DNA of 64,000 nucleotides from Actinomycetes bacterium (lineage in GTDB: Bacteria; Actinomycetota; Acidimicrobiia; Acidimicrobiales; Acidimicrobiaceae): positions 1 through 64,000 of the forward strand of contig JAJZFV010000037.1 of assembly GCA_021805205.1 (NCBI GenBank). The letters are read 5' to 3'. Position numbers and translations under genes: made by a program. Of this stretch, positions 6,443-28,386 are shown in pieces (position 1 is the first letter of the stretch; each line of letters opens with the position of its first letter). The notes under the pieces are model-generated. The model saw only the letters and a program-made list of their open reading frames with translations, was not told the origin of the DNA and made no database searches.

Positions 6443-7255
6443 CTAACTGCGTACCATCCCACCGTCGATCACCAACTCTGAGGCTACCATTGATGGATTT
6501 TGATGAAGCGATAGTATCGCTTGAGCTACTTCATCTGCCTCGATGATCCTTTTGCTAAGGTGATGGGTGGCAAATTCGTCGCTGCTGCTGAGGCCATAGA
6601 GGTCGCTTGAGGCGTCTAGCATCGCGCCGCGAGTTGAACCAGGGGCAACGATGTTTAGCCGGATCTCTATATCACTCAATTCAACTGCGGCTACCATAAG
6701 GTAGCTTCTAAGTCCCCCCTTTGCCGCAGAGTAAGATGCAAGACCGCGTAGCGCTTTGATCGAGGCGACTGAGGTGAGGGCAACTATGGATCTAGAGAAG
6801 GGGTTGGACCAGGGATCAGTAGTTAGGTAGGGGACAAATGCAGTTATGCAGTTGTGAACCGCGGTGAGGTTATTCGTAACGGCTTCGACTATTTCAGTAT
6901 CCGATAACTCGAGGAAGTTTCGGCCTCCATCGATAGCCCCAACGGTTATCGATAGTGTATCAATTGGCCCGTATTGGGCATTTATCTCTTGGGCGCATAT
7001 AGCTGTTGCCTTAGCATCTCGAAGGTCGACACCAAATGCGCTATATTCAGAGCTGAGGATCGATCCACTTTTGTAGACTCCTAGGTCAGATGGCTCCGGA
7101 AAATCTAGTACCACCACTTTGTGATCGAGGATCGAGAGTTGTTGTGCTACTTCTTTGCCGATACCGCGACCACCGCCGGCCACTATAGAGACCTTCTTGC
7201 GATCTATAATCCCAGTCAATCTGTCACCGTTATCTACAACTAGAGGGTCGGCCAT
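6443..7255 (-). CDS. SDR-family oxidoreductase of the mycofactocin locus
   Basis: A 270-aa short-chain dehydrogenase. The nucleotide-binding glycine motif is AGGGRGIG (residues 26-33), catalytic Ser162 is in LTSVAS and the YxxxK pair is Tyr175/Lys179 (ASYSAAKGG). The usual NAG motif is replaced by VGA. Its start overlaps the mftE gene by 16 bases, so it is translated in the same operon as MftE and ETF beta. Mycofactocin loci often carry SDRs thought to use a non-exchanged nicotinamide re-oxidised through mycofactocin. Placing this SDR in that class is inference from position. About 16 residues precede the Rossmann strand, slightly longer than usual. Confidence 0.85.
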   Translation of the reverse strand: MADPLVVDNGDRLTGIIDRKKVSIVAGGGRGIGKEVAQQLSILDHKVVVLDFPEPSDLGVYKSGSILSSEYSAFGVDLRDAKATAICAQEINAQYGPIDTLSITVGAIDGGRNFLELSDTEIVEAVTNNLTAVHNCITAFVPYLTTDPWSNPFSRSIVALTSVASIKALRGLASYSAAKGGLRSYLMVAAVELSDIEIRLNIVAPGSTRGAMLDASSDLYGLSSSDEFATHHLSKRIIEADEVAQAILSLHQNPSMVASELVIDGGMVRS

Positions 7256-8016
7256 GCTACCGGTGCGTGGATTACCGTAGCGTAAAAGCCATCGAAGTGT
7301 TCTACTAGCGAGTTGCTAAAGGCACCCAAGATCGCCGCCCCCTCCTCTTGGTTGGAACCTGTTGGGTCTCCTATTACGCCGTTAGTCGAGACCGCCTTGA
7401 CGCCGTAGTTGATCATATGGGGGAGAATCTGCTCGAAGTTACTGCTTCCTCCGGACTCTGCCCTATCGAGGTGCACCATATCTGGGGCGAGCGCCATCAT
7501 CGCTGAGGTCTCGGTTCTGCCAGCGTGAAGGTCGGGATGCTCTAATCCCCTGGCTTCGTCTGGTCCACTCCAGCGAAGTGCCGCTTGACGCAGGACCTCT
7601 TGGGTGGGCCACCAAGCTGTGACTCTGCGTTTTTCACCCTTTAGAATTTCTATCCCCCTTGCCATTGCTATGACGTTTCCACCGTGGGCGGTGATAAAAA
7701 GAGTGCCAGCAAAGCGGGAGGCGGATCTCCCAAGCTCTACCACCATAGAGGTCAATACCTCATTTCCAATGGAGAGGGTTCCAGGAAAATGTATGTGCTC
7801 GTGCGATGCACCTATGGTTATCGGAGGGGCCAAGATCGATTTGTCGGGTCGCCTCTGAGCGAGCACCTCTGCCAAAGCGTTAGTGATTATTGAATCGGTG
7901 AGAACTGGCAGGTGCGGACCGTGTTGCTCGGTAGAGCCGATTGGAATTATCAGTACAGAGGACTTCTCTACCTCCTCTACTTCGGGGTAGGTCATCGAGG
8001 TTAAGTGTCTCAACAT
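7240..8016 (-). CDS. mftE: mycofactocin precursor peptidase MftE (creatininase family)
   Basis: MftE is the creatininase-fold metallopeptidase that cleaves the modified MftA peptide to release the C-terminal Val-Tyr-derived AHDP. The 258-aa protein has the metal-binding pattern of the family: Glu30 and His32 in IGSTEQHGPH, Asp41, the histidine in FITAHGGNV and the glutamate in HAGRTETSAMM. The start ATG follows directly after the ETF beta stop codon, and the AGGAGG ribosome binding site lies inside the end of that gene, so translation is tightly coupled. It sits about 10 kb from mftABC, with two flavoenzymes and an ETF system in between, unlike the compact mycobacterial order. Confidence 0.9.
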   Translation of the reverse strand: MLRHLTSMTYPEVEEVEKSSVLIIPIGSTEQHGPHLPVLTDSIITNALAEVLAQRRPDKSILAPPITIGASHEHIHFPGTLSIGNEVLTSMVVELGRSASRFAGTLFITAHGGNVIAMARGIEILKGEKRRVTAWWPTQEVLRQAALRWSGPDEARGLEHPDLHAGRTETSAMMALAPDMVHLDRAESGGSSNFEQILPHMINYGVKAVSTNGVIGDPTGSNQEEGAAILGAFSNSLVEHFDGFYATVIHAPVAWPTL

Positions 8017-8811
8017 CTACCTCCTGATCTCGTCGATCTTCTCGAGGATAAGGCTAGCACCATCTTTGGGGTCGATAGCGGTAACGACTTTTGAGCGCTT
8101 GGGTGCTCCCTCCATCAGTTGATCCCTGCGAACTGATGCACTTTGGGCCACCGGAATACTTCGAATTGACGGTCTTATGTACTTCTCCACCGATGTGATC
8201 TCAACTGGCACTGAAATCGCATCGCCAATCGAAGTAGTGACCAATGCAACCTCCATGGCTCTAGCTGCTATCTCATCGGAGACTTTTGGCCGAAGCTCGC
8301 TCGAATTAGGTGTCATAGCGGCAAATGTCTGTCGCTTGCTGACAAGGATGATCTCGGATGAGGCGAGTTTCTGAGTGATATGGATCTGGTTACTCTCAAC
8401 CGATAGGGTAGAGACATTTGCAATGTACTCATAGCCCAAAATTGAGCTAGCGACGGGGGAGGGATCGATCACATTTAATCCTTGGGGATACTGCGGTATC
8501 AAGGTAAGTCCAGCGCCTAGGAATTGAACGGCGGATATGACTTCAGCAACTCCCCAAGAAGAGGTGCGATTCGATAAGGCACTGGCGTCGACGCAGATGG
8601 CGTCAGAGAAGCCATAAGCGCGACAGTAGGCGATCAGATTGCGGTCAATCTCGTCGCCAACGAGGACCACAGATGCTCTTTTGACCCTCGACTCTTTTAC
8701 CATCCGGGCTCCGACCAACATAACGTTGAGCTCACTCGGTGAAAGTCGGGTGAGTCTACTCCAGTCGCCTCCATCTCTTCGCTTACGATAGAGAACGGCC
8801 GCTAGATCCAA
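8017..8811 (-). CDS. electron transfer flavoprotein beta subunit, mycofactocin-associated (divergent EtfB/FixA)
   Basis: A 264-aa divergent ETF beta subunit. ETF carries electrons from flavin dehydrogenases to a membrane quinone oxidoreductase. The typical adenine-nucleotide fold is seen in ASVVLVGDEIDRNLIAYCRA and GFSDAICVDASAL; NVIDPSPVASSILGYEYIANV corresponds to the family's glycine-rich AMP-site segment. Similarity to canonical EtfB is modest, in keeping with a specialised subfamily found in mycofactocin loci. Start TTG 8811 has a strong ribosome binding site, GAGGAG. A gap of 249 bases separates it from the DUF2419 gene upstream, so it may have its own promoter; it is fused in expression with mftE downstream. 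Confidence 0.8.
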   Translation of the reverse strand: MDLAAVLYRKRRDGGDWSRLTRLSPSELNVMLVGARMVKESRVKRASVVLVGDEIDRNLIAYCRAYGFSDAICVDASALSNRTSSWGVAEVISAVQFLGAGLTLIPQYPQGLNVIDPSPVASSILGYEYIANVSTLSVESNQIHITQKLASSEIILVSKRQTFAAMTPNSSELRPKVSDEIAARAMEVALVTTSIGDAISVPVEITSVEKYIRPSIRSIPVAQSASVRRDQLMEGAPKRSKVVTAIDPKDGASLILEKIDEIRR

Positions 8812-9060
8812 TTGGACTCCTCTGATTAATACTTTCCTGAATTTAATTTACTTGATTGGGATATTCGATGTTTTGATACTCTCGCCCTTTAAGGAGTGGG
8901 ACGGGAAATCTCGATAATGTTAATTGCAATTTAGAGGTTTAGATGCTTTCTCGTAGACCAATTGATCTCAAACTTCCCTATGAAAGGGCGAATTGGTCCA
9001 CATGAAGGTCAATAGAGCCAAAATTCTCAACCAGCCATAGATCCCAAGGTGTCAGTTCGC

Positions 9061-10050
9061 TTAGTAGAAGGTGCATCGACATCTATGGCGAGGGGATTCT
9101 TTGTAGATCTTTTGTCTCCCCATGGACCAAAGGAGTTGGTCGAGTTCCCTCGGTGAGATGGTGATTTGGTGATCTAGATTCAGGTGGTTCACTATGGATT
9201 CGCACGCTACTACGGTCGCTGCTCGAAGCTCGACCTCGTCACTACTTCCTACCTCAAAGAGTTGCTCTGAAGCTATCTTTTGGGTGAGTTCTTCGCTAAA
9301 TTTGAGGACTCCTTCAACCCTAAGGAGATTTGGCAGGACGTTGTCGGCAAAGATTGTCAACCGATCTATATCTTTAAATTGTTTCGATTGACCCGCTGTT
9401 ACCAATGCAATATCGCTAGCTGCAATCTGGGCCCGCTTGTAGAAGTATGTTATCTCCGATCCTTCGATGACAAAGTCCTTGTAGAACGGCAATGAGGCCA
9501 ATATAGTTACCAGCTTGCCAGCGCTCTCACCAGCCTCTTCCACCAGATTCATTGCGTCGCCTTGGTAGTCCTCAATTAACAATTGGCCAAGCTGAAAGAG
9601 GGCGATACGATAGAGCTCCATCAACTGCCCAGCTTCGTCACTATTTTCTTGACCTAACATCTGAGCTACGGTATCGGTGGTGAGCGAACAGAGTTGGTTC
9701 GGTGTGGGTATGGCGTATTGCCTACAGTAGTTTGAAAGCGCGGTTGCGATAGATACAGCTCCCGAGCCTCCGTCGATTTTTTTCAAGTAGGGAAACCATC
9801 CCGATCCAAAGTTTATAGTATCGGCAATTAGGACGTAGTAGATCCCTGTGGTGATGTCATCAAAATCGAGGAAGAAATTGCTATCGACGGTTCCAATTAC
9901 CCCGCGGTCTCCGGCTGCTATCTTGTAGGCGAATTTTCCGATCGCCAGTTCGTCTATGGAGAGGTGCGACAACGACTTTGCCCTCTGGAGACAGCTTGTG
10001 CGCACCAACTCGTAGGGCTCTATTGAGTGAGCTAGATATTGCTTTTCCAT
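9061..10050 (-). CDS. queuosine salvage / queuosine 5'-phosphate N-glycosylase family protein (DUF2419)
   Basis: A 329-aa protein of the Q-salvage family (DUF2419, Qng1), whose eukaryotic and some bacterial members hydrolyse queuosine 5'-phosphate to free queuine. Family hallmarks are DFDDITTGIYYVLIADTINF with GSGWFP, then GGSGAVSIATALS, FYKRAQIAASDIALV, LTIFADNVLPNLLR and VGSSDEVELRAATVVACE. The C-terminal end HRCRCTFY corresponds to the family's HRTRTIFY. It lies inside the mycofactocin redox operon but has spacers of 369 bases upstream and 249 downstream, so it may be a separate transcription unit. A role in the mycofactocin system would be new; simple insertion is the plainer explanation. 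Confidence 0.85.
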   Translation of the reverse strand: MEKQYLAHSIEPYELVRTSCLQRAKSLSHLSIDELAIGKFAYKIAAGDRGVIGTVDSNFFLDFDDITTGIYYVLIADTINFGSGWFPYLKKIDGGSGAVSIATALSNYCRQYAIPTPNQLCSLTTDTVAQMLGQENSDEAGQLMELYRIALFQLGQLLIEDYQGDAMNLVEEAGESAGKLVTILASLPFYKDFVIEGSEITYFYKRAQIAASDIALVTAGQSKQFKDIDRLTIFADNVLPNLLRVEGVLKFSEELTQKIASEQLFEVGSSDEVELRAATVVACESIVNHLNLDHQITISPRELDQLLWSMGRQKIYKESPRHRCRCTFY

Positions 10051-10419: not shown

Positions 10420-10824
10420 CTAGCCGTGTTTGAACGAGACTCCGTATCCGCCAGTTGGATACGACCAGTTGACATAGGTGGGGCAAGCAATTTCGCACGC
10501 ACCGCATTCAAAGCAGCCTTCGTAGTTGAATAGAATCGATTGATCTGCGGTGAGTATAAAGAGATTCGCAGGACAAACGTATAGACAAGCTTTTGTCGAA
10601 CATCCTCCACAGCCATCGTCGACTACTCGAATGTGGGCGGTTGAGGAGGTTCTGAAGGCCACTGCCACGGAGAGGTCGTCGAGTAAGTGACGAAGAGAGA
10701 CCTCAGTTTTAGAAGCCTTATCTTCTTCATCGTCGAAACTGGTTTTTCCTTCGATCTCACCTTGGCTCTCCGCAAGAGGGGCCCTTTGAAAGTCGAACTT
10801 TGGACTAGATGATGACTTTGTCAT
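10420..10824 (-). CDS. fixX: FixX-type ferredoxin partner of ETF:quinone oxidoreductase
   Basis: A 134-aa ferredoxin that probably passes electrons from ETF through FixC to quinone. About 65 acidic, low-complexity N-terminal residues precede the iron-sulfur domain. Two cysteine groups are visible: CGGCSTKACLYVCP (CX2CX4CX3CP, one spacing longer than canonical) and CFECGACEIACP (perfect CX2CX2CX3CP). Classical FixX has one canonical cluster, so this protein may carry one or two. It is read 72 bases after the fixC-like gene in the same direction. The N-terminal extension is unusual for FixX. Confidence 0.85.
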   Translation of the reverse strand: MTKSSSSPKFDFQRAPLAESQGEIEGKTSFDDEEDKASKTEVSLRHLLDDLSVAVAFRTSSTAHIRVVDDGCGGCSTKACLYVCPANLFILTADQSILFNYEGCFECGACEIACPTYVNWSYPTGGYGVSFKHG

Positions 10825-10899
10825 TTATTTTCTGATCCTTCGCCAAATAGGGTTTTAGCAGCTGCAAGTCATTAGAGTTCATCTCGTCGATCAAATTCA
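10804..10899 (-). CDS. possible 31-aa ORF between fixC-like and fixX-like genes
   Basis: A short frame starts with an ATG overlapping the fixC-like stop codon (ATGA) and runs through the whole gap into the start of the fixX-like gene, ending in TAG after 31 codons (begins MNLIDEMNSNDLQLL, ends INDKVII). The stop-start overlap is typical of coupled genes. A frame this short is open by chance fairly often, and I do not recognise the sequence. It may only serve to couple translation of the ferredoxin. Confidence 0.25.
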
Positions 10900-12246
10900 T
10901 TTAAATATACGAAAGCCGCTAATGAGACTACGAGCCATTTCGGCTCTAGTTATCTTTGCCTCTTTCATTGCAAACTTCAAGGCTCCTGCAAATCCAATCT
11001 TTGTCTCAGGATCGTTCACGGTAAAGACCTTATCAGCAAAGTAGTTAGCTAACTTAGGCAGCTTATCTTGGGCGAAATCCGATGAAGCGAATTCGAATGC
11101 TCCAGAGAGGCGCTTGTGGTTTATACCGATAAACGACCTTGATATCCGTGATGCTAAAGTAACCAGCTCGTCAAAGTTATTTGATAGAACGGTATCTGCG
11201 ATAAGGCGTGCTACCTCGATTCCCGATGCTATTGCGTAGTTAACTCCTTCGAGGTAGATTCCAGCAGCTAGTAGCGTTGAAGCAGAGTCACCGGCGAAGA
11301 CGACTCTTCCTATCGGCGACTTTGGAAAGTTGCGATATCCGGCTTCATTTAACAAGTGTGCCCCATACTCAAGGCGAGTTCCCCCTTTGATCAGGGGTGC
11401 AATCGAAGGATGGGACTTGAACGATTCGAGGAGATCCTCGGGGCGTCGCTTTTTAGAGGCAAGGTCGTCGATGTCGACAACTAGGCCGATTGAGATGGAG
11501 CCATGGTTGGTGTAGATAAAGCCTCCCCCCGCCACATCGTCGGTCGCGCCGAGGACTTCGATATCGACACCGCTAGTGCGATCGACACCAAAGCGTTCAT
11601 CGATGATCGTGGGATCGAGGGAGATAGTCTCTTTGACCCCAAGCGAAAATACCGGCGCCTCCCCCTTTTTCCCGCTGATCTTCTCTAGAAGGTGTGGATT
11701 TGAACCCTCTGCTACGACGACGTATTTTGCACTAATTACTTCGGTCGAACCATCTCCATTCGAGACCGTTACTTTGGCATCTTTACCACGGTCGCCCGGT
11801 TCGATATCGGTTACAAGTGCCTCAAGGATCAATGTGGCACCTCGGTCTTGGGCTATCTTTGCTAGAAAGCCGTCAAACTCTCGTCGATGCGAGGTGATGG
11901 CATTTGGGAGGCCTTCTGTCCAGCTAGGGTTGTCGACTGAGAGCGATATCGCTCGATCCCTATCCAAAATCATCGTGGTGCGGCGATAGATCTTTCGCTC
12001 GAAGGGTATTTTTGCAATTTCGGCCTCCTCCAAGAGCTCCCGAAGGATTGATAGGTATATAACCCCACCGTATAGGTTCTTGGCACCGACGTAGCTGCCA
12101 CGCTCCAAGATCAATACTTTTAGTCCCTTGCGCGAAGCAGTAGCCGCCGCCGCAGCTCCAGCTGGCCCACATCCTACGACGATAAGGTCGAATTGCGACT
12201 CACCATTGGGCTCGAAAGAGTGTTGTTGCTGGACGTTATTGATCAT
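10897..12246 (-). CDS. fixC: FixC-type electron transfer flavoprotein:quinone oxidoreductase
   Basis: A 449-aa FAD protein of the FixC/ETF-QO family, which accepts electrons from ETF and reduces the membrane quinone pool together with FixX. The FAD-binding motif is FDLIVVGCGPAGAAAAA (residues 20-36), followed by ILERGSYVGAKNLYGGVIY; the second FAD motif is RVVFAGDSASTLLAAGIYLEG. The N-terminus reads over the end of the ETF alpha gene by 11 bases, so both are made together. In this locus it gives the mycofactocin flavoenzymes a direct route to respiration. This is an inference from the operon, as no biochemical evidence is visible in the sequence. Confidence 0.88.
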   Translation of the reverse strand: MINNVQQQHSFEPNGESQFDLIVVGCGPAGAAAAATASRKGLKVLILERGSYVGAKNLYGGVIYLSILRELLEEAEIAKIPFERKIYRRTTMILDRDRAISLSVDNPSWTEGLPNAITSHRREFDGFLAKIAQDRGATLILEALVTDIEPGDRGKDAKVTVSNGDGSTEVISAKYVVVAEGSNPHLLEKISGKKGEAPVFSLGVKETISLDPTIIDERFGVDRTSGVDIEVLGATDDVAGGGFIYTNHGSISIGLVVDIDDLASKKRRPEDLLESFKSHPSIAPLIKGGTRLEYGAHLLNEAGYRNFPKSPIGRVVFAGDSASTLLAAGIYLEGVNYAIASGIEVARLIADTVLSNNFDELVTLASRISRSFIGINHKRLSGAFEFASSDFAQDKLPKLANYFADKVFTVNDPETKIGFAGALKFAMKEAKITRAEMARSLISGFRIFK

Positions 12247-13345
12247 CTTGTTCCATTACTATTCGATAGAGGTGCTCTAGCACCTCTTGTCCATCGCTAA
12301 TGAAGGCATTGTCGACGAAGGTGTTGATCGGCGCACCTTTATCGAGGTTGAAAGATATCCCCTCGCCGACATTCTCAAGACCACCGAGGTGTTGTGGTTG
12401 GCCCGATACTCCTAGGGCGATATAGAGCTCGGGGGAGATCGTTATCCCAGTTGTTCCGATTTGACGGGAGTGGTCCATCAATCCGGCATCGCATATCACC
12501 CTGGTCGCTCCGTAGCCGACGTTGAGTTTTTCCGCGATTGCGACGACCTTTTTAATCGCATCAGCGCTCTTTAGGCCGCCGCCTACCACCAGAACGACCT
12601 CTGAGGTGGCAAGGGAGGCGGTGGTGCCTGAGGTCTCGATAATCTCAAATGAATCAAACCGATTCAAAGAACTTTGACCGTCGTTATGTATATGTGGCGC
12701 CGTGCTAGAAGGAGTTGGACCTTCGACATCAGATGCTAATTCACCTGAGGTGTCATCTTGATGATCATTTTGGCTTGCCCCGTAGACCTTAGGAGACTCG
12801 TTGTCTGGCGAACCTGTTCCTCGTCGTCTCGGATCAATGGTAGTTATCACATATCCGCTAGTTCCGCTACGTTCGTAGTAGGTGGCACCAATGTCGTAGT
12901 TGGTTGTGGCTATGCGATCGTTGTAGATCGCAGCTATAGCACCGACAAAGGCGAGGGCGAAGGTTGTAGCTAGCTTGGCGCTGATACCAATTGCGCGGTG
13001 GTCACCCATTACCAAAATCGAGTCAGGTATGGAATAGCTGTAGCCGGCACCACCCAGAAAAGAGTGGGAAGCCGACTGAATAGTAAGAGCCACGTCCGTC
13101 GGATAAAGGTTCTGTGGCGCGAATACCTTAAACCTCAGACCAATTTCGCTACGACGCCTACAGCTGTTGCAGTCGAATAGACCAGGAGCCTCAGTAGCTG
13201 GGTCATCGTCCCATTGGTCGACCTCCAAAAGGGGAGTGTTTGGGCCAAGTTGGCTACAGATTAATTGATCGTGGCCACCCCATAGTGAAATCAGCAAAGT
13301 TTGGTGATCTTCTCTTTGATCGATGAGATTCAAAGTTAGCCCCAA
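12236..13345 (-). CDS. electron transfer flavoprotein alpha subunit, mycofactocin-associated (EtfA/FixB-like)
   Basis: A 369-aa divergent ETF alpha subunit. The C-terminal FAD domain (about 240-360) is well kept: VVLVVGGGLKSADAI, GYGATRVICDAGL, RQIGTTGITISPELYIALG, VSGQPQHLGGLENV and NLDKGAPINTFVDNA align with the EtfA signature (Arg, QVGQTG, SGAIQH and NKDPDAPIF in canonical proteins). The middle (about 180-235) is an unusually long Asp/Ser/Pro-rich linker between the two domains. The start is a TTG at 13345, since an in-frame stop lies just upstream. A small ORF overlaps the start by 10 bases. The partner is ETF beta at 8017, about 4 kb downstream and not adjacent as in most etf operons. 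Confidence 0.85.
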   Translation of the reverse strand: MGLTLNLIDQREDHQTLLISLWGGHDQLICSQLGPNTPLLEVDQWDDDPATEAPGLFDCNSCRRRSEIGLRFKVFAPQNLYPTDVALTIQSASHSFLGGAGYSYSIPDSILVMGDHRAIGISAKLATTFALAFVGAIAAIYNDRIATTNYDIGATYYERSGTSGYVITTIDPRRRGTGSPDNESPKVYGASQNDHQDDTSGELASDVEGPTPSSTAPHIHNDGQSSLNRFDSFEIIETSGTTASLATSEVVLVVGGGLKSADAIKKVVAIAEKLNVGYGATRVICDAGLMDHSRQIGTTGITISPELYIALGVSGQPQHLGGLENVGEGISFNLDKGAPINTFVDNAFISDGQEVLEHLYRIVMEQDDQ

Positions 13346-13488
13346 CTTTCATTCGATGATGCGTATTGAATTGATTCAACCGAGATCACAAGTGAGGTAT
13401 TGGGGAAGGTGATGTAACCTTTGCCTTTGAAGCTAAGTTTGGATAAGTCTTCAACGGTCAAGCGTTGTTCAAGGTCTACTTTTGCCAC
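13336..13488 (-). CDS. candidate 50-aa protein between OYE and EtfA genes (unknown)
   Basis: A 50-codon frame that fills the apparent gap between the second FadH/OYE gene and the ETF alpha gene. Its GTG start shares a base with the TAG stop of the OYE gene (TAGTG), and its TAA stop lies 10 bases inside the ETF alpha frame. It would thus be translationally coupled on both sides. The product begins with Met-Ala-Lys-Val-Asp and a short Lys/Glu-rich helix-like part, then GKGYITFPNTSLVISVES, which looks like a beta-hairpin, and ends NESWG. I do not recognise a family. The frame could be a spacer or a small accessory subunit for the OYE or ETF proteins. Confidence 0.5.
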   Translation of the reverse strand: MAKVDLEQRLTVEDLSKLSFKGKGYITFPNTSLVISVESIQYASSNESWG

Positions 13489-19981: not shown

Positions 19982-20271
19982 TGGGAGGTCTCCTTATTGG
20001 GTGGACACTCTACCGACGTATCTTGGTCCGTTAAAATCCCCTTGGCCATCAATTGATCCAAGGTGGCTTCAATCGATTGGGGAGTAAAGTCGTCGAGAGC
20101 CTGATCGGATAAGATCTCAGCCTTGCTAAGCGGACTTGTTGCGACCAAATCCATCACCTTGACTGTTATCTTCGACTTTGCAAGTAGAAGTTGGCGAGTA
20201 TTGAAGTTATAGAAGAGGCCACCAAATTCTTCTTTGCGATACGAAAAATCTTTGGAGATTGTAATTGTCAT
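19978..20271 (-). CDS. mftB: mycofactocin peptide chaperone MftB (PqqD-like RRE)
   Basis: A 97-aa RiPP-recognition protein that binds the MftA leader and presents it to MftC. The sequence has the small winged-helix pattern of PqqD/MftB proteins: FGGLFYNFNTRQLLLAKS forms the beta-hairpin strands, followed by helices around LVATSPLSKAEIL and QSIEATLDQLMAKGIL. A strong GGAGG ribosome binding site precedes ATG 20271. The gene follows mftA after a 143-base leader and overlaps mftC by 4 bases. Identity rests on size, fold pattern and position between mftA and mftC. Confidence 0.92.
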   Translation of the reverse strand: MTITISKDFSYRKEEFGGLFYNFNTRQLLLAKSKITVKVMDLVATSPLSKAEILSDQALDDFTPQSIEATLDQLMAKGILTDQDTSVECPPNKETSQ

Positions 20272-20298
20272 AAATCTCCCTCCACCCTTTAATTAAAT

Positions 20299-20414: not shown

Positions 20415-20543
20415 CTAGTAGACGCCGCACATTGAATCGATAGAGATCTCCTCTAGAATCAGCGCTTCGGTCACTTTGCCACCTTCGCCGCTTGATGTTT
20501 CAGCCTCGGCTTCTTTGGCAGCTTCAACCTTATCTTCTTCCAT
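20415..20543 (-). CDS. mftA: mycofactocin precursor peptide MftA (42 aa)
   Basis: The substrate peptide of the pathway, which is too short for most gene finders. The 42-codon frame begins MEEDKVEAAKEAEAETSSGE and ends LEEISIDSMCGVY, then TAG. The acidic leader and the terminal core with the final Val-Tyr, which MftC decarboxylates and cross-links, are diagnostic of MftA. The widely conserved end IDGMCGVY here has Ser for Gly. A strong ribosome binding site, AAGGAG, lies 7 bases before ATG 20543. mftB and mftC follow in the same direction after a 143-base structured spacer. Only the Val-Tyr pair ends up in the cofactor; the substitution could affect leader recognition or MftE cleavage. Confidence 0.95.
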   Translation of the reverse strand: MEEDKVEAAKEAEAETSSGEGGKVTEALILEEISIDSMCGVY

Positions 20544-20760
20544 ATCTTTCTCCTTTTTTATCCTTCTCGTGGTAGATCAAAGTCGTTTCAAGACCCTAGG
20601 CGACCACTCTTTTTTTCTTGGCACTGAGCCGTTTTGACACCTTCAACCCTAAATCTACCAAAGGTTCGATGGGTCGTATGACCAACAGTCACGATCAATC
20701 GGTAATAAGGCAAAATCGGATTCCAGAGCTAACGAATAGTAGCTTTCGATGTCACCATTG

Positions 20761-21732
20761 CTAGAAGCTGAGGAGAACCTTGCCAATACTTTTTCGAGAT
20801 GAAATTAAATTGTGGGCCTCGCGAACTTGGTCTAGCTTCATCACCTCACCGATCTCTAGGGTTACTTGCCCGCTCGTAAGATATGTCAAGGCCTTTTGCA
20901 TCAATGGTTCGACCAGTTCCGGACGGTTCCGGCGTAGATTTCCAAATGAATAGCCGATTACTGCTCGAGAAGTGGGATGAAGCATGTTAGAGGCGACTGT
21001 TCCGGGGCGACCACTTGCCATTCCAAAGACTAAAACTCGGCCAAAACCGTTTGTAACTTTTAGATCCTCTTCGAGGGTAAAGCCTCCGATTGAATTTAGC
21101 GAGAGGTCGATTCCGCCTCCGAGCGCCTCCCGAACTCTTGGGGCGTATTCACCTTCGTCACCGTAGAGAAGGCCGATCGCTCCTCTGTCTTCAACTACCT
21201 TTACCTTCTCCTCCCGTGATACCAGTGCGGCGATCTTTGATGCCCCATCGGCAGCGGCCATTGAGATCAAAGTAGTACCGACCCCACCTGCCCCAGCGTG
21301 AACCAAGATCGCATCACTTTGTACAATCTGAGTAGCGCTATGCAATAGGCCATAGGCGGTGCCGAGAAGCAGTGGTGAAGCAGCGGCTTGTAACTCGTCG
21401 GTACCATCTGCTACTTCGAAGAATTGTCCCATGGTAGCGAGGCAATATTCGCTATAGCCACCTTGGTCAACGAAGGCAATTACCCTCTTTCCTATCCAAG
21501 TGGAGTCGACCTCGTCGCCCACCTCAACGATGGTGCCATAGGCATCGATGCCGGGGGTAAACGGTGGCGTACCAACGGCGTAGTTTCCTGCGACCGCCAT
21601 GATATCGGCGAAGTTTATCGAAGCGTACATGGTCTCAATTAGGACTTGGTGGCTATTTGGAGTTGGTTTAGGGAGGTCGCCGATCTCCATCTTTGACGAA
21701 TCACCGTGCTCGCGAACTATAACTGCCTTCAT
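20761..21732 (-). CDS. zinc-free MDR-family quinone oxidoreductase-like protein
   Basis: A 323-aa medium-chain reductase of the NADPH:quinone oxidoreductase type, lacking zinc ligands. It has the N-terminal GroES-like fold (MKAVIVREHG; INFADIMAVAGNY; PGIDAYGTIVEVG) and the nucleotide motif ILVHAGAGGVGTTLI near residue 145. Such enzymes reduce quinones or enones with NAD(P)H. It lies 217 bases upstream of mftA and in the same direction, downstream of an aminotransferase gene. Whether it is a client of mycofactocin or an unrelated neighbour cannot be told from the sequence. Confidence 0.85.
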   Translation of the reverse strand: MKAVIVREHGDSSKMEIGDLPKPTPNSHQVLIETMYASINFADIMAVAGNYAVGTPPFTPGIDAYGTIVEVGDEVDSTWIGKRVIAFVDQGGYSEYCLATMGQFFEVADGTDELQAAASPLLLGTAYGLLHSATQIVQSDAILVHAGAGGVGTTLISMAAADGASKIAALVSREEKVKVVEDRGAIGLLYGDEGEYAPRVREALGGGIDLSLNSIGGFTLEEDLKVTNGFGRVLVFGMASGRPGTVASNMLHPTSRAVIGYSFGNLRRNRPELVEPLMQKALTYLTSGQVTLEIGEVMKLDQVREAHNLISSRKSIGKVLLSF

Positions 21733-21897
21733 TGAGGGGTACCTACCTACTTATCTTCACTTGTATCAGATTTGACTTTTTCACATGGCATTAGAGCTCC
21801 TCGGCTGAGGGTCGCTTCCTACCTTATGGAAGTAGGATAGGTCGGTAACCCTATATGGCCGAAGCTAGAGCTTAGGGAGTCATGTCGTTACTCAAGA

Positions 21898-23145
21898 TTA
21901 TCGGTCGGCGGCCTTCAATGCATCGACGAATGCACTTCCTAACCGCTCTAATTCATCTTCGGTTGCAGTGAGCGGGGGAGAGACCGCAATGGATGAAACT
22001 AAGGGTCGAACCAAAAATCCCCGACTTCTCATCTCCATCTGAACTCTGCCCATGACCCCTGGATCGACTTGACGGCGCTCTTTTGAGAATTCGATGGCTC
22101 CCAGAAGGCCAAGTCCGCCTCTTACCTCTTCGATAAGGGGTGAGTCGCTAGATCCATCTAGAGCCTCCTTGAGATGACCCTCTAACGCTTCGCCCCTTTT
22201 TATCAGCCCCTCTTTTTCTAAGAAGGTGCAATTAGCTATACCAGCCGCCGCCGCTAGTGGGTGGCCAGCATATGTCGGGCCATGGCGAAAGATGACGCCT
22301 CTATTGAAGAATGGATCGGAGACTTCGCCCGATACCACGACTCCGCCGAGGGGTACGTACCCAGAGGTTATACCTTTGGCAAAGGTAATCATGTCTGGCA
22401 CTACACCGAAGCGTTCTGGTCCAAACCAGTAACCGAGTCGACCGAAGCCGCAGATCACCGAGTCGACGATCATCAGAGCGCCAATCTCTTTTGTTATCTG
22501 CCTTATTCTCTCGAGGTAGCCCTCCGTTGGAAGGTGCACTCCACCTGCGCCGATTACCGGTTCAACAAAGATTGCAGCAACTTTATCCGCACCGACAGAA
22601 TTTGCTAGGCGCAGCAGGTCTTCGGGGTCGTCTCTATCTACGAGTGCCACATCCGGTATTAACTCTCCCCACCCAACCCGATTCGGATCGATTCCAGCTA
22701 ACGAGGTGCCAAAGCCATGGGTTCCGTGGTAGGAGTCTTTTCGACTAACGATTACGGTTCTTTGGCTCTGCCCCAACTCAACAAAAAACTTGCGCGATAG
22801 CTTGGCGGCGGTTTCGATGGCATCGCCGCCACCGGAGACGAAAAAGACCTTGGAATTTGCCATAGGAGATCTTTGGGCGACAAAGTCGGCAAGCTCCTCG
22901 ATGGGTTCGTTGGTTATGTCACCAAAGGTGGAGTAACAGGTGAGGGTATCTGCCTGAGCCTTGATGGCGTCGACTATCTCGGGTCTGCCGTACCCTGCAT
23001 TGGCATACCACAGTGAAGCAGTTGCATCGAAGTAGCCTTTGCCGTCTTTATCGAATACGTAGTTCCCCTCCCCTCGTACGATGGTAAAACTCTTGTCTTT
23101 GACGTCAGTCATGTTCGCAAATGGGTGCCAGAATGAAGTTGCCAA
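21898..23145 (-). CDS. class III (omega-amino acid type) aminotransferase
   Basis: A 415-aa PLP-dependent class III aminotransferase, the family of omega-amino acid:pyruvate and diamine aminotransferases. N-terminal FWHPFANMTDVKD, the phosphate-binding segment FFVSGGGDAIETAAKL (SGGGD where most members have SGSEA), the cofactor Asp in LMIVDSVICGFGRLG and the PLP Lys in MITFAKGITSGYVPLGG are visible. The start is TTG 23145. It is flanked by a PucR-type regulator and the quinone reductase-like gene, which suggests an amine or amino-acid catabolic unit nested between mftF and mftA. Substrate unknown. Confidence 0.87.
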   Translation of the reverse strand: MATSFWHPFANMTDVKDKSFTIVRGEGNYVFDKDGKGYFDATASLWYANAGYGRPEIVDAIKAQADTLTCYSTFGDITNEPIEELADFVAQRSPMANSKVFFVSGGGDAIETAAKLSRKFFVELGQSQRTVIVSRKDSYHGTHGFGTSLAGIDPNRVGWGELIPDVALVDRDDPEDLLRLANSVGADKVAAIFVEPVIGAGGVHLPTEGYLERIRQITKEIGALMIVDSVICGFGRLGYWFGPERFGVVPDMITFAKGITSGYVPLGGVVVSGEVSDPFFNRGVIFRHGPTYAGHPLAAAAGIANCTFLEKEGLIKRGEALEGHLKEALDGSSDSPLIEEVRGGLGLLGAIEFSKERRQVDPGVMGRVQMEMRSRGFLVRPLVSSIAVSPPLTATEDELERLGSAFVDALKAADR

Positions 23146-23265
23146 CGTAGTGCCCTCTAGTCGGTTGTATTTAATTGGTCCCCCTACGATACACCCGTGG
23201 CGCTAGGTAATTATATTCAAAAATCAGGGTAATAATTGGAGATTTTTATAAACATCCCTCGAATC

Positions 23266-24930
23266 TTAACTGCGACGGTGGCGCTTAAGTGATAGGTAGA
23301 CGTCGACTAACTCTTCGAAGTCGTCTAGGTCGATACCGAGGCCTTCGCGCACTTTATTGAGGCGGTAGCGCATCGAGTTGGGGTGGATTGCTAGGCGTTT
23401 TGCCGCTTCAGTGATGTCGAGGTTGCACTCGAGATAGGCGATCAAAGTTGCAACGGTGTGCTTTTCAATCTCTAACTGCTCTACCTTTGTCTTTTGTTTA
23501 GCCTCTAGGGCCACTGGTTCTACCTGCGCAAGGAGCCATGTAGCCATCTTTACATCCTCAAAACGAATTAAATGCTGCCAGTTGAGGCTCGACGCTTTGC
23601 GGTTATTCGCTTCGAGCTCCGAGAGTGCCGAAAGCGCCTCGCGATAACCAAGTACAAGGCCATTTGGACCGTCTATTGCCCTCGATATTCCTGTAAATGT
23701 AGAAGGGTAGTTGGCGTCGAATTGGCTTACCAGAGGCTCAATAGATGCCTTTTCGCACTGGATTAGGGCGATTAATCTTTCGTCATGTACGTCGTCGATC
23801 TCGATCGCACCTGTCTCCTCTGACCTTCGTCTAAAGTCAGCTTGGTGACGTTTTAAATCGTCCGAGGATGATACGGCTACAAAGACGGGCTTGGAAAAGT
23901 CGATCCCCACAGTTATCAGGCGTTCTAATGAACCCCGCCCACCTCGAATCGAGGATGCTCGAGTTGGCTTGATCGCTAGTGATTCGATGAGTAGAGCCCT
24001 CTCAAGTGCACGCTTTTCGTTGGCTCTTTCGTTGCGTGTCTGAAGTGCAATTGATAGGATGTGGCCGGCTGATCGAATAAGCGGGAGCGAGAGGTGAAAA
24101 CCAACTTCTCCTGGGATGGCATTCGTCTGCACTAGCGTTAACCAAGAGGGATCTCGATCGCCATCGAGGACTGCCAGTGCCAACCCCGGGCCAAAGTCGG
24201 TTTCAAATTCAAATATTTGGGTTAATGTGACGCTTTGGTTCTCGGCCGCCCCTTTACCTCGACTGCCACTTCGCGCTTTGGCATTTGCCTTCTCGATCTC
24301 TACATGGCGCGATACCTCGATCAATATCGCATTTAGGACTTCGCGTCGAATGTTGTCTGATGTAAAGCCAACAGCTAGCTCTCGAGTGACAAAGGCAACC
24401 TCAGAGGAGACCAATGGTGCAAGGCGTTCTACTAACGATCTGATCGGTGACTGCGACAGCAGGGCATCGATGAGGTAGTCCTGCACCGAGACGAAGCGTC
24501 GAAGTGCTCCTACATTTGGAGAGAGAAGGCTTTGGTTGATAAATGCAATGATCTCTGCGAATCCGGTAGCAAACGGCACCGTGAAGAGGGGTAGTTCAAA
24601 CTCTTTAGCTGCTTCGATTAAGGCAGTTGGGACCTGTTTGAAGTTGATATCGAGGGCGAAGCCTAGGGCGCAGATGTTGGCGTTCGCCAGCTCTTCTACC
24701 AACAGGCGCTGCTCTTCTGGCTTTCCCTTCAACCGTAGTCCTGTGGTAAGGGCAATCCAATGGGATGAGAACCATCGAGTTGGGTGTGAAATCTCAAACG
24801 AGTGGGCACCAGTTACAGGGCGAAGCTTGTCGCCTTCGACTCCACTGATCAGAGTGAGGCCCAGCGATGGTTGTGACAGTACCTCACCAAGCGTGAGCTG
24901 ACTTCCGGTTGCCGGCTTTTCGAGCGGCAT
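23266..24930 (-). CDS. PucR-family transcriptional regulator
   Basis: A 554-aa regulator with the PucR layout: an N-terminal sensory domain (LTLGEVLSQPSLGLTLISG; HPTRWFSSHWIALTTG; ICALGFALDINFKQVP), a long central GGDEF-like region and a C-terminal helix-turn-helix (LDITEAAKRLAIHPNSMRYRLNKVREGLGIDL). PucR-type proteins often activate catabolic genes next to them in response to a substrate. Here the likely target is the aminotransferase gene 120 bases downstream, and possibly the mycofactocin genes, because no TetR-type MftR was seen in the window. Ligand unknown. Confidence 0.87.
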   Translation of the reverse strand: MPLEKPATGSQLTLGEVLSQPSLGLTLISGVEGDKLRPVTGAHSFEISHPTRWFSSHWIALTTGLRLKGKPEEQRLLVEELANANICALGFALDINFKQVPTALIEAAKEFELPLFTVPFATGFAEIIAFINQSLLSPNVGALRRFVSVQDYLIDALLSQSPIRSLVERLAPLVSSEVAFVTRELAVGFTSDNIRREVLNAILIEVSRHVEIEKANAKARSGSRGKGAAENQSVTLTQIFEFETDFGPGLALAVLDGDRDPSWLTLVQTNAIPGEVGFHLSLPLIRSAGHILSIALQTRNERANEKRALERALLIESLAIKPTRASSIRGGRGSLERLITVGIDFSKPVFVAVSSSDDLKRHQADFRRRSEETGAIEIDDVHDERLIALIQCEKASIEPLVSQFDANYPSTFTGISRAIDGPNGLVLGYREALSALSELEANNRKASSLNWQHLIRFEDVKMATWLLAQVEPVALEAKQKTKVEQLEIEKHTVATLIAYLECNLDITEAAKRLAIHPNSMRYRLNKVREGLGIDLDDFEELVDVYLSLKRHRRS

Positions 24931-25193
24931 TCTATCGTTACCCCCTACGGCGAATTATCCCTCGACGACGACGCTATGAGCCACCGAATTAGCCAATGGC
25001 CCATGTAATATCGGTCGAGACCACGCGATCACCCCATTGTGACCCCGAACAGTTTGACACTCGCAATTTGTTGTTTCTACAAACTAGCGAGGGGTGCATA
25101 GCAATCTGACTATCGGTAATTGTGAATTAAAGAAATTTGAAACTTTTGGAAAATACAGGGTTAAATAGCAGCTTAGGATAGGCGAAGTTCTCT

Positions 25194-26897
25194 TCACAAT
25201 TTTGAAATTGGAAGCGTTCGCTCGCGCAAAGAACCAAAGGCGACTCCTGCGCCATATGAGATGTCATAGACGATCGAAACCAAGGCTGCGCTAGTTATCG
25301 ACCATTTTTCGATACAGCCCTGGTTGGTAGTATCAAGTGCAATCTGGGGATCTTTTCTGGTGGCATTTTGGTTGAAGTTTGCCCCGTAATTTACTTCGCT
25401 TCGCCGCTCTTCAAAATTTGATTTGAACTCCATAACCGAGACGATTATCTGCAGTCCTGCTTCAACTCCAAATGCAATGACCGCAGCCCTGCCTCCTGTA
25501 AGTCGCCCCCTCAAACTTTTGGCATTGGTGGTACCGAATAACTCCAAATCGCCGTGGCATTCGGTTTGGGTCTTCAACTGGTTGAAGAAAATGGCTCTAG
25601 GAGTTTTCGACTTTGACGTTGACCGCAGCACGATCGTTGCAATTGTCGCCTTGATCAATATCTCTGCAAGGCCATAGGTGCGTCTAAGAGAAGAAAGCGA
25701 GCTATCTCTCTCGCTCGTAGCTTTAAGAGTTTGACCTGGAATATCACTAAAGTTAGATCGTTGGCGCCTCATTGCAAGTTGTTGGAGGAGGAGTGACGCG
25801 GCGATTGTCGATATCGGTGAAAGGTTGATCCAACCCCTAGATAGCTGAAAGATCTCGCCGTCGGTGGAGCGATGAAGGGTGGCCATTGAGGAGCCGTAGT
25901 GGAAGGCCTGCTTTGAAAGATCTTTGAGACCTTGCCTTGGCGGATGGGTCGCTATGACCGAAGAGTCGTAGTAACACCTACCTGAGTTCCGTGCCACTCG
26001 TTTTACAAAGTCGACGTCTTCTCCATATCGCATCTTTTCATCGAAGCCGTTGTGAGCCTCAAAAGTTGCACGATCTACAACCAGCAGGGTCGATGGAAGA
26101 TAGTGGGGGCCACCTTCGCCTACCCTTCCCCGATGTGGCCCTAGATCGAGTGGAAAGTGAACTTCTTGGAAGAGGAGAGGGCCACTTATGGTGCAGTTGG
26201 TACCCTCTGGGACAATTCTAGGAGCAGCCACCTGAGCAATTGAGGAGGAGACGAGGTAAAGTAGCCTTTCAACCGTAGAGGCGAAGGTTACTCCGCAGTC
26301 GATAAAGGCGATTATCTCGCCAGTGCAATGTTGTGCACCGACATTGCGGGCTCTTGCAGGGCCGCCGTTTTTGACTATCGTAATTAGCGATATCGGCATT
26401 TGCGTCTCTTTGGAGCGCGCTGCATACCCTCTACTGGCTTTTTCGATGATCCTTTGGATCGTTTCAATGTCTTTAGATCCGTCGTCGACGACGATCACCT
26501 GGGCGATGATTTGGTCCTGGTTATGGTCGATGAAGTCGGTGATGTATTTTAAAGTATTTTCAAGTCCCGATGGATCGTTGTAGTGGGGGACCACAAAAGA
26601 GATCGAGAACGTAGGACCTGGCTCTGTGATGTCGTCATTTGACACTTGTTGATCTCGAAGTGGGATGGCCCTTGCGACGCCAATGTCGAGCAGCCTTAGA
26701 AAGAATGAAGTCTCCTCTGGCGAGGTAGGCAGATATGGTCGCACCCTAGCTACCTCGACTAGTTGGCGAGCAAATTGCGATAGCCGAAGAGCTCTCTGTC
26801 GGGTGGGCGCAAGGAGATAATCTTCGTGGAAGAGCGCCTCTTCAATTAAAAATGCGACTTTGGCTCTCAATTCACCGTTATTCACATATGACGTCAA
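25194..26897 (-). CDS. mftF: mycofactocin glycosyltransferase MftF
   Basis: MftF adds beta-1,4-glucose units to the AHDP/PMFT core to give mycofactocins. The 567-aa protein has a short N-terminal winged-helix-like part (about 30-75, ending LLDIGVARAIP), a GT2 domain (about 95-330) with FVVPHYNDPSGLE, VIVVDDGS, NGGPARARNVG, LDLGPHRGRVGEGGPHYLPS and GFDEKMRYGEDVDFVKRV, then a C-terminal hydrophobic-helical region. The last motifs are specific for MftF. The usual metal-binding Asp-x-Asp appears as FIDCGVTF, lacking the second Asp. Start TTG 26897 has a poor ribosome binding site. It stands alone, 263 bases from PucR and 367 from the ADH gene. Confidence 0.9.
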   Translation of the reverse strand: MTSYVNNGELRAKVAFLIEEALFHEDYLLAPTRQRALRLSQFARQLVEVARVRPYLPTSPEETSFFLRLLDIGVARAIPLRDQQVSNDDITEPGPTFSISFVVPHYNDPSGLENTLKYITDFIDHNQDQIIAQVIVVDDGSKDIETIQRIIEKASRGYAARSKETQMPISLITIVKNGGPARARNVGAQHCTGEIIAFIDCGVTFASTVERLLYLVSSSIAQVAAPRIVPEGTNCTISGPLLFQEVHFPLDLGPHRGRVGEGGPHYLPSTLLVVDRATFEAHNGFDEKMRYGEDVDFVKRVARNSGRCYYDSSVIATHPPRQGLKDLSKQAFHYGSSMATLHRSTDGEIFQLSRGWINLSPISTIAASLLLQQLAMRRQRSNFSDIPGQTLKATSERDSSLSSLRRTYGLAEILIKATIATIVLRSTSKSKTPRAIFFNQLKTQTECHGDLELFGTTNAKSLRGRLTGGRAAVIAFGVEAGLQIIVSVMEFKSNFEERRSEVNYGANFNQNATRKDPQIALDTTNQGCIEKWSITSAALVSIVYDISYGAGVAFGSLRERTLPISKL

Positions 26898-27264
26898 CGC
26901 TTTGATGATAACGGCTTTATCCTAAGGCGCCTTCTCGGCTAAGGGAACTTTTTTAGCTGTTTTACGTAAGATCTATCGTAAATGGCAATTTACCGTTCTT
27001 AGAAAATACCATTTTATGCGCTGCAGCTGCCATGCTTTGCGGAAGGCTCTAACGCGGAAGATAGATACGCCCTCCCTCTCGACCCAGATGGCGTCTGGGA
27101 CCCTTAAAAAGCAGATAGCCACCGGTATGATCCAAGTGGCTATCTGCTGAGAGTGCTAAAGGACGTCTTTATCCCCATGGTACAACTACTAGCAAAGCTT
27201 CAACTTATCGCCGTTCGCGATGAGGCTACGGCTTATAGCTTCCCTGTGTTCTGGAGGTATGAGA
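26898..27264. other. spacer with terminator, upstream of mftF
   Basis: A 367-base spacer between the ADH gene and mftF. It contains the terminator at 27108-27146 and presumably the mftF promoter to its left. No gene is seen. Confidence 0.5.
27103..27146 (-). terminator. rho-independent terminator of the NDMA-type ADH gene
   Basis: A 13-bp perfect stem (27108-27120 with 27134-27146) and a 13-base loop, followed on the minus strand by TTTTTAAG. The T-run lies on the minus side, so it ends transcription of the alcohol dehydrogenase gene and separates it from mftF. Confidence 0.85.
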
Positions 27265-28374
27265 TCAATCGAAGAGAATGACTCCTCGGATATTTCTTCC
27301 GTCCCTCATGTCGGCATACCCCTCGTTGATTTGATCCAAAGTGTAGGTCTTGGTGATCAGGTCGTCGAGCTTCAAGATGCCATCACGGTAGAGATCCAAG
27401 AGGCGCGGAATGTCGTGTCGTGGATTGGCCGACCCAAAGATTGATCCGCGGAGCTGCTTTTGAAAGAGTGTCATATCTAGAAGGCTGATTTTGGCGTCGA
27501 TCTGCATCAACGGAGAGATAGATGTCATTACTAAACGACCATTCTTGCCGATTAGCCCCATCGCACTAGCGATTATCTCACCTTCGCCGACTCCAATTGC
27601 GATGACTGCGGCATCTGCCATGTGACCGTCGGTGATGTCTAGTACGATAGCTCGCGCTTCGTCAATTGAGGTAGCGGTATGCGTGGCCCCAAATCTCTTG
27701 GCAGTGTCGAGCTTCGATGGAGTTGGATCGATAGCTACGATATATCGAGCCCCCGCAATCCTTCCTCCTTGCACTGCGTTCATACCGATTCCGCCAACAC
27801 CGATCACGCAGAGAACGTCCCCCGCTTTTACCTCGGCGGTGTAGACCGAGGAGCCATAACCAGTAGTCACGCCGCACCCAACTAGGGCAGCTTTGTCTAG
27901 TGGGATATCGCCTCGAACTTTTACTACTGAATTTTCGTGGGCAACTACATAAGGTGAGAAGGTGCCCAGGCAGCACATAGTTCCAACGCCCTGGCCCCGT
28001 GCAGTAATTCTTTGTCCTCCGGCTAGTTCGCTGCCGGATAGGATCAATGCTCCTAGTTCGCACAGGTTTTGGTGGCCTGTGGAGCAGGCGCGACACCTAC
28101 CACACGACGGGATGAAGCTCAAGACTACAGGATCGCCCTCTTGTACAGTGGTGACGCCTTTACCGACTGCTTCTACCCACCCGGCACCCTCGTGGCCGCC
28201 CACAATTGGAAGTGGTGCGGGTAGATCACCTGTAAGTAGGTGTTCATCAGAGTGACACATTCCGGAGGCGGCGAGCTTCACCCGCACTTCGCCTGGAAGT
28301 GGATCTCCAAGATCGACCTCCTCGACGCTCCACTGCGTTCCCGCTTCCCAAAGTACTGCTGCTTGAGTCTTCAT
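27265..28374 (-). CDS. NDMA-dependent, mycofactocin-linked alcohol dehydrogenase
   Basis: A zinc-dependent medium-chain alcohol dehydrogenase of the group whose tightly bound NAD(H) is recycled by N,N-dimethyl-4-nitrosoaniline in vitro and by mycofactocin in vivo. Catalytic zinc ligands are the Cys of SGMCHSDEH and His-Glu of GGHEGAG, with the third Cys in VGCGVTTGYGSS. Structural zinc ligands are in PSCGRCRACSTGHQNLC. The nucleotide motif is VIGVGGIGMNAVQGG. The end FGSANPRHDIPRLLDLY and IRGVILFD is typical of the NDMA group. I start at the ATG of KTQAAVLWEAG (28374) and not 12 bases earlier. It ends in its own terminator and likely starts the upper mycofactocin arm. Confidence 0.9.
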   Translation of the reverse strand: MKTQAAVLWEAGTQWSVEEVDLGDPLPGEVRVKLAASGMCHSDEHLLTGDLPAPLPIVGGHEGAGWVEAVGKGVTTVQEGDPVVLSFIPSCGRCRACSTGHQNLCELGALILSGSELAGGQRITARGQGVGTMCCLGTFSPYVVAHENSVVKVRGDIPLDKAALVGCGVTTGYGSSVYTAEVKAGDVLCVIGVGGIGMNAVQGGRIAGARYIVAIDPTPSKLDTAKRFGATHTATSIDEARAIVLDITDGHMADAAVIAIGVGEGEIIASAMGLIGKNGRLVMTSISPLMQIDAKISLLDMTLFQKQLRGSIFGSANPRHDIPRLLDLYRDGILKLDDLITKTYTLDQINEGYADMRDGRNIRGVILFD

Positions 28375-28386
28375 AATTCCCCCCAA

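Follow-up and report, generated by a model that had tools for sequence, protein, structure and literature searches.

An OYE/ETF/FixCX cassette as a candidate replacement for MftD in a second type of mycofactocin locus

How is mycofactocin finished in a genome that encodes the maturation genes of this cofactor and no MftD? The question is raised by a locus within a stretch of 64,000 nucleotides, hereafter the window, from an Acidimicrobiaceae bacterium (assembly GCA_021805205.1, contig JAJZFV010000037.1, positions 1 to 64,000; genome G000, contig C53:1-64000 in our sets), whose assembly comprises 2.62 Mb in 55 contigs and is 89% complete. The mycofactocin biosynthesis set, i.e., MftA, MftB, MftC, MftE and MftF, is encoded together in the window, accompanied by a cassette for two FadH/OYE (old yellow enzyme) Fe-S flavoproteins, OYE1 and OYE2, both subunits of an electron transfer flavoprotein (ETF), EtfA and EtfB, as well as FixC and FixX. 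According to the accessible text of PMC11778925, MftC and MftE yield 3-amino-5-[(p-hydroxyphenyl)methyl]-4,4-dimethyl-2-pyrrolidinone (AHDP), which is deaminated by MftD to premycofactocin. MftD makes the redox-active ketoamide of mycofactocin, and it is missing from 24 of the 70 mftC genomes drawn for this work. We lean towards the interpretation that these loci constitute a second type of mycofactocin locus, in which the OYE/ETF/FixCX cassette would replace the MftD step and pass the electrons to quinone, which suggests a second way of making mycofactocin. The association of these families with mycofactocin is already known, as names that state no function (NCBIfam TIGR03996, TIGR03997, NF038209 and TIGR04503). 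If true, a replacement system would explain how MftD-less genomes finish the cofactor, give functions to these four 'mycofactocin-associated' families, and change the annotation of mycofactocin clusters.

The distribution of OYE2 and MftD was compared in 70 mftC-positive genomes drawn regardless of OYE or MftD, including 52 of the 247 genomes of the class and 18 more of the phylum, with MftD called by TIGR03966 over its cut-off of 470.85 bits. OYE2 was found in 23 genomes, MftD in 46, both in none and neither in one (Fisher p 1.3e-17). Twenty of the OYE2 proteins exceeded the cut-off of their model, and those of G000, G134 and the contig-cut G173 were accepted at 764-788 bits, the next best score of any genome being 580. 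In the class, MftD was over its cut-off in 31/247 genomes, 30 of them mftC-positive, and in none of the 18 with mft_etfA (NF038209); the other four mftC-positive class genomes were G000, G214 and G134, with a diverged cassette, and the fragmented G197, with mftC at a contig edge. Of the 18 genomes from the phylum draw, 16 have MftD; OYE2 was found in precisely the remaining two, G286 and G417. No OYE, etfA, fixC or fixX was found in the stretches of at most 10 kb on each side of mftC in the 30 MftD-type class genomes. The absence of MftD stated in the original prediction for this locus extends to the whole 2.62 Mb assembly of G000, where the highest-scoring protein, at 221.5 bits, is encoded on a different contig. 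Past mftC, the first gene to carry a label is an OYE at 21 of 26 loci of the OYE type, and mftD at 13 of 41 of the MftD type. Further, in a set selected by OYE2 (80 loci over GTDB contigs, 313 relatives in all; 50 genomes tested, one being G161 of the class), mftC was present in 50/50 genomes and mft_etfA over its cut-off in 48/50. The lack of MftD is tracked slightly better by OYE2 than by mft_etfA, as G417 has OYE2 and no mft_etfA at E <= 1e-60. The G417 locus (L263) is the most diverged of the OYE type, with mftC, one OYE, a diverged etfA, fixC and fixX, and nine OYE_2-profile matches occur genome-wide.

The cassette could instead represent a client pathway, either employing mycofactocin or carried along with it, AHDP being deaminated by another, unrecognised enzyme. 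This would suit a superfamily that has reductases of unrelated substrates, which are its best profile matches, and a class III aminotransferase is indeed found in the locus, in the window's family (f1). However, a client pathway gives no reason for 69 of the 70 genomes to have one, and not both, of OYE2 and MftD, nor for an OYE to follow mftC so often, and just 2 of the 21 OYE-type class genomes were seen to have the aminotransferase close to an mft gene; we consider this explanation quite improbable. On the same count, the aminotransferase was rejected as an MftD replacement in its own right. In literature searches covering open-licence papers, mostly as abstracts, no account of an exclusion with MftD or of its replacement was found, and the combination of mycofactocin with 'electron transfer flavoprotein' retrieved no paper; the complementarity of the cassette with MftD is therefore new, as far as searched.

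The locus type has switched repeatedly along the MftC tree. A tree of 87 rows (3 of them not tested for MftD) requires 15 type changes, and a tree restricted to the 63 rows of the unselected draws requires 11, at least seven of which are forced by well-supported branches, with a bootstrap not fully settled. Shuffled labels on the latter tree gave approximately 18 changes compared with the 11 observed, and the type is therefore partly inherited. Since no row has both, each switch of the OYE type is a switch of the MftD type; a sign test on pairs (7/7 opposite, p 0.016) adds nothing beyond these switches, there being one label per row. In family f4, for example, G231 displays the order mftB-mftC-OYE-SDR-OYE-etfA-fixC-fixX (SDR, short-chain dehydrogenase/reductase), and mftD directly follows mftC in five of its relatives.

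A third sample, of plasmid sequences only, comprised 72,556 records, with mftC at E <= 1e-60 in 12. MftD was found on four of these (Mycolicibacterium chubuense NBB4, Streptomyces sp. NBC_00080, Tsukamurella tyrosinosolvens and Thermomicrobium roseum). Of the other eight, six Streptomyces plasmids carry OYE2, at 73-75% identity to the query from Amycolatopsis, and two haloarchaeal plasmids, Haloterrigena turkmenica pHTUR01 and one of Halolamina, carry a protein resembling OYE2 (38%). OYE-like matches without mftC came from Rhodococcus rhodochrous and Shinella oryzae. The RefSeq annotation of a Streptomyces plasmid lists mftA-B-C, a FAD oxidoreductase, OYE 2, mft EtfA, a FAD oxidoreductase, a 4Fe-4S protein, mft EtfB, an SDR, mftF and mftE. 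In the haloarchaeal cassettes, the OYE is accompanied by EtfA, a FAD oxidoreductase resembling FixC, a 4Fe-4S ferredoxin and an ETF alpha/beta subunit; next to them lie a glycosyltransferase gene (mftF in Haloterrigena), mftC, mftB2, mftA and a creatininase-family gene (mftE in Haloterrigena). Two OYE-type flavoproteins are encoded at each of these two loci (L285 and L286), together with several SDRs of the mycofactocin-coupled kind, and AAA-ATPase genes and VWA-domain genes lie by the cassette.

Both locus types share the same precursor core. Using the pattern CGxY and counting each locus once, we recovered an MftA core from 40 of 41 MftD-type and 40 of 45 OYE-type loci, every core ending in CGVY; in the six loci without one, mftC or mftB lies at or near a contig end. 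Therefore, the same intermediate, AHDP, is expected in both types, and some enzyme must deaminate it. The core of the window, IDSMCGVY, has a Ser unique to G000, where the other 79 cores have Gly (IDG or VDG). Regarding the reaction, the electron path and the choice of OYE, we infer that MftC and MftE would produce AHDP as usual, and that OYE2, our preferred candidate, perhaps together with OYE1, would oxidatively remove the AHDP amine in MftD's stead, giving premycofactocin. The electrons would then run from flavin mononucleotide (FMN) to the 4Fe-4S cluster, the dedicated EtfAB, FixC/FixX and finally the quinone pool. In the MftD-type clusters of mycobacteria, Thermomicrobium and others, the MftA core, MftB, MftC, MftE, MftF and nicotinoprotein clients are common with the window locus, which differs in lacking MftD and having the cassette.

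A comparable electron route is described, in the accessible texts of PMC7688666 and PMC5500553, for Pno of Agrobacterium S33, a protein of the trimethylamine dehydrogenase (TMADH) family with FMN, 4Fe-4S and ADP that oxidises an amine and reduces EtfAB; the latter is re-oxidised by Euo with coenzyme Q, and etfAB and euo belong to the nicotine gene cluster. In the Pno homologue of Pseudomonas geniculata N1, FMN is given as non-covalent (PMC7688666), and a TMADH-ETF complex is known (PMC8097209). Pno, TMADH and histamine dehydrogenase are, like OYE1 and OYE2, Fe-S flavoproteins of the OYE superfamily, and they oxidise amines, with Pno and TMADH reducing ETF. Conversely, the cassette differs from these systems in its low identity to them (23-26% in structure matches), in having two paralogues and no flavin-binding Cys, and in its predicted substrate, a peptide-derived cofactor intermediate.

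The window OYE2 falls inside the OYE2 clade of the OYE tree, just below the TIGR03997 cut-off, and OYE1 appears as a long branch that stays under the cut-off of TIGR03996. In the window lineage and G134, OYE1 is extremely diverged from other OYE1 proteins, with its Fe-S cysteines kept, and its role may differ from theirs. At the second Rossmann fold, OYE2 proteins mostly have DELGFH and OYE1 proteins mostly a DPxGGP loop, rich in glycine, compared with IIGCGGIG in the Escherichia coli dienoyl-CoA reductase and YDDDHYY in histamine dehydrogenase; inspection by eye found the classical NAD(P)H loop, GxGxxG, in none of the 16 OYE2 and 15 OYE1 rows, and both families carry an Asp, as in histamine dehydrogenase, at the GCGGIG site of the reductase. 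Judged by its residues, the loop thus appears closer to that of histamine dehydrogenase than to that of dienoyl-CoA reductase. The best PDB fold for the OYE2 model (pLDDT 70.9) was 6l6j, titled amine oxidase HisD, the 6-HPON amine oxidase of P. geniculata N1, with NCR, histamine dehydrogenase, dienoyl-CoA reductase and TMADH close behind. What speaks for an amine dehydrogenase is chiefly the set of genes that accompany the OYEs, along with the near-complete exclusion between OYE2 and MftD.

The ETF gene is likewise tied to mycofactocin. All 18 class genomes with mft_etfA over its cut-off (18/247) are among the 52 carrying mftC (chance 4e-14), and at least two ETF-alpha matches were obtained in each of the 18, the position of the second being listed for nine; judging by these second matches, the mycofactocin-linked ETF looks like an extra ETF. 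This co-occurrence bears out the dedicated ETF/FixCX/OYE module proposed originally and does not fit a beta-oxidation ETF without mft linkage in relatives, although G000 itself has a single ETF-alpha match at E <= 1e-15. Its family members G214 and G134 have three each, and the lone match may be due to assembly incompleteness. The EtfA of G000 fails the NF038209 cut-off, yet it has the same gene neighbours as the members that exceed it. No NCBIfam or Pfam match was obtained for the window EtfB, including none to TIGR04503 (cut-off 200 bits); its AlphaFold model (pLDDT 73) best matched ETF beta structures in PDB (1efv_B, E 2e-10; TMADH-bound ETF 1o94_C, 2.3e-8), and the alignment behind this model contained related EtfB sequences, so that synteny and predicted fold are support for its identity rather than proof.

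FixC and FixX together are the counterpart of ETF:quinone oxidoreductase. The same gene content recalls the bifurcating Fix/EtfABCX complexes, which would drive ferredoxin or NAD reduction rather than simple quinone delivery, and the window EtfB has the electron bifurcating 7koe as one of its fold matches. However, slightly better matches come from ETF chains of human and Paracoccus, and an about equal one from the TMADH-bound ETF; moreover, the Fe-S flavoproteins of the module belong to a superfamily in which ETF donors are known. Bifurcation therefore appears very unlikely to us.

The original prediction had assigned the ETF branch to the place of MftG, which, according to the accessible text of PMC11778925, connects mycofactocin chemistry to the respiratory chain. 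In such a scheme, the ETF/FixCX branch and an OYE acting as mycofactocinol dehydrogenase would re-oxidise reduced mycofactocin into the quinone pool, as MftG does in mycobacteria. The lack of MftG noted for the locus extends to the whole assembly of G000 (no TIGR03970 match at E <= 1e-60), and in the second set of genomes MftG exceeds the cut-off of 387.45 in just one of 52 of the OYE type (0/2 in the phylum draw and 1/50 in the OYE2-selected set); these results refer to TIGR03970, the narrower models TIGR04542 and NF038210 (Gordonia, Dietzia; PMC11778925, accessible text) not having been searched. Furthermore, 14 of the 21 OYE-type class genomes have genes matching the ADH (alcohol dehydrogenase) profile in the vicinity of mft genes, and the authors of PMC11778925 leave open what serves the 25% of mftC genomes that lack MftG. 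Our findings bear on that question, i.e., on how such genomes couple the cofactor to respiration. However, MftG is over its cut-off in 0/247 class genomes, and thus missing as well from the 30 MftD-type ones, which have no cassette, and outside the class it occurs in only 7 of 16 MftD-type genomes. Its distribution does not follow that of the cassette; therefore MftG, a glucose-methanol-choline (GMC) oxidoreductase, is no counterpart of the latter, which in its distribution complements MftD, not MftG. An MftG substitute would also leave the deamination of AHDP without an enzyme where MftD is absent. The substitution of MftG is hence not favoured, and we regard it as unlikely. A second role of the cassette, or of one OYE, in recycling the reduced cofactor is possible. 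As for MftR, no TetR-type match (TIGR03968) was found among the scanned locus proteins, with no genome-wide search run.

The replacement of MftD by the cassette may be extended to a broader proposal, in which one OYE would make premycofactocin and the other would re-oxidise mycofactocinol, both feeding the same EtfAB-FixCX. Such a system would be respiration-linked and oxygen-independent, and would represent a second ancient form, swapped with MftD many times in bacteria and serving haloarchaea too; we offer this tentatively and hold it to be rather doubtful.

Several points weigh against the replacement of MftD by the cassette. The exclusion between OYE2 and MftD is strong, not absolute, as MftD also occurs in 3 of the 50 OYE2-selected genomes: in Saccharopolyspora ipomoeae, one mft locus of each type is present, mftB-C-D-E and, separately, mftB-C-OYE-OYE-etfA-fixC-fixX (L264 and L265), a pairing that also counts in favour of the replacement, and a further MftD lies elsewhere; in S. 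endophytica, MftD stands without any other recognised mft gene in the 20 kb around it (L267); and in one metagenome-assembled genome, the MftD gene is on a contig of 6.6 kb (L269). Different OYE proteins do occur in MftD-type genomes, the highest score with the OYE2 model being 562 bits (cut-off 793), and the searches for OYE1 (TIGR03996) and for FixC and FixX covered the loci and the vicinity of mft genes, respectively, not whole genomes. Only one OYE was found at the G417 mft locus, and the proposal does not account for the two OYEs of other loci. The flavin-binding Cys of TMADH and histamine dehydrogenase (PHCN) is absent, OYE2 proteins having AHLTN and OYE1 proteins mostly PHxTN; the fold scores of OYE2, from a model of pLDDT 70.9, hardly differ from one another; and for both OYE families the profile scores with NCR and 2,4-dienoyl-CoA reductase exceed those with the amine dehydrogenases, a comparison that was set aside as not decisive between reductase and amine dehydrogenase. 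Finally, the window EtfB and OYE1 are very diverged, and G000 is incomplete to the extent given above.

The genes of the locus, called by NCBIfam and Pfam profile matches of the window proteins and each evaluated against the curated NCBIfam cut-off, are listed in Table 1.

Table 1. Features of the mycofactocin locus in the window and the evidence for each call
Feature	Position	Strand	Evidence
SDR oxidoreductase, mycofactocin-coupled-like	6443..7255	-	best NF040491 133 bits, below cut-off 265; adjoins mftE also in G134 and G214
MftE peptidase	7240..8016	-	TIGR03964 223.7 bits, above cut-off 172
EtfB-like subunit, strongly diverged	8017..8811	-	position of TIGR04503 mft_etfB in relatives; predicted ETF beta fold
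Queuosine-salvage (PF10343/DUF2419) protein	9061..10050	-	PF10343 7.5e-50
FixX-like 4Fe-4S ferredoxin	10420..10824	-	best NF011993 FixX 4.2e-11, below cut-off
FixC-like flavoprotein (ETF:quinone oxidoreductase part)	10897..12246	-	NF007542 193 bits, below cut-off 610; PF21162 ETFQO ubiquinone-binding 1.7e-9
EtfA-like subunit	12236..13345	-	PF00766 7.8e-25; NF038209 mft_etfA 124 bits, below cut-off 240, C-terminal part only
OYE2, FadH/OYE Fe-S flavoprotein	13488..15548	-	TIGR03997 789.6 bits, cut-off 793.15
OYE1, second FadH/OYE Fe-S flavoprotein, very diverged	15545..17608	-	TIGR03996 288 bits, below cut-off 628 (627.9)
SDR oxidoreductase	18076..18849	+	SDR families
MftC radical SAM maturase	18878..19981	-	TIGR03962 549 bits, above cut-off 265
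MftB chaperone	19978..20271	-	TIGR03967 45.2 bits, above cut-off 33
MftA precursor peptide, end IDSMCGVY	20415..20543	-	open reading frame list; recognised by core, not by model
PIG3-like quinone reductase / ADH-family protein	20761..21732	-	TIGR02824 182 bits, below cut-off 296.8
Class III aminotransferase	21898..23145	-	best NF005682 333 bits, below cut-off; also in mft locus of G134
PucR-type regulator	23266..24930	-	PF07905 and PF13556; also on mft contig of G134
MftF glycosyltransferase	25194..26897	-	TIGR03965 154 bits, below cut-off 280
NDMA (N,N-dimethyl-4-nitrosoaniline)-dependent alcohol dehydrogenase (client enzyme)	27265..28386	-	TIGR03989 545 bits, above cut-off 440

MftC, MftE, MftB and the ADH are over their cut-offs, and MftF, OYE2, OYE1 and EtfA are below; these last are proteins in which the window lineage is diverged, and so under the curated cut-offs. 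Read from 28386 to 6443, the minus-strand order is ADH, MftF, PucR, aminotransferase, PIG3-like, MftA, MftB, MftC, OYE1, OYE2, EtfA, FixC, FixX, queuosine-salvage protein, EtfB, MftE and SDR. The mft genes and the NDMA-type ADH of the original prediction were recovered in place by profile matches and the open reading frame list, and so were EtfA, FixC, FixX, the two OYEs and the SDR, with EtfB placed by synteny and predicted fold; the PF10343 gene at 9061-10050 had been overlooked. The description of one coupled operon holds in part: OYE1-OYE2, EtfA-FixC and MftE-SDR overlap and EtfB abuts MftE, but gaps of between 72 and 369 bp separate the remaining cassette neighbours, and the plus-strand SDR stands between mftABC and the cassette, from mftC to OYE1.

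The queuosine-salvage gene was rejected as mycofactocin machinery, having no positive co-occurrence with mft genes across the class: PF10343 is rarer with mftC (4/52 genomes) than without it (52/195), and it was seen close to mft genes in no genus but that of the window, in G000 and in G214 (L096, 10005-10982, beside mftE-SDR). The two genes occupy different places in the locus and share 28% identity; this gene is probably a passenger of the genus. Between mftA and mftF (20761-24930) stand the PIG3-like quinone reductase, the class III aminotransferase and the PucR regulator; the latter two, which recur on the G134 mft contig, may belong to a client pathway or to local regulation. Elsewhere in the window, a frame at 53769-54713 resembles, by eye, a molybdate-binding lipoprotein, and precedes a single 587 aa frame (54894-56657) that looks like a fusion of an ABC permease with its ATPase.

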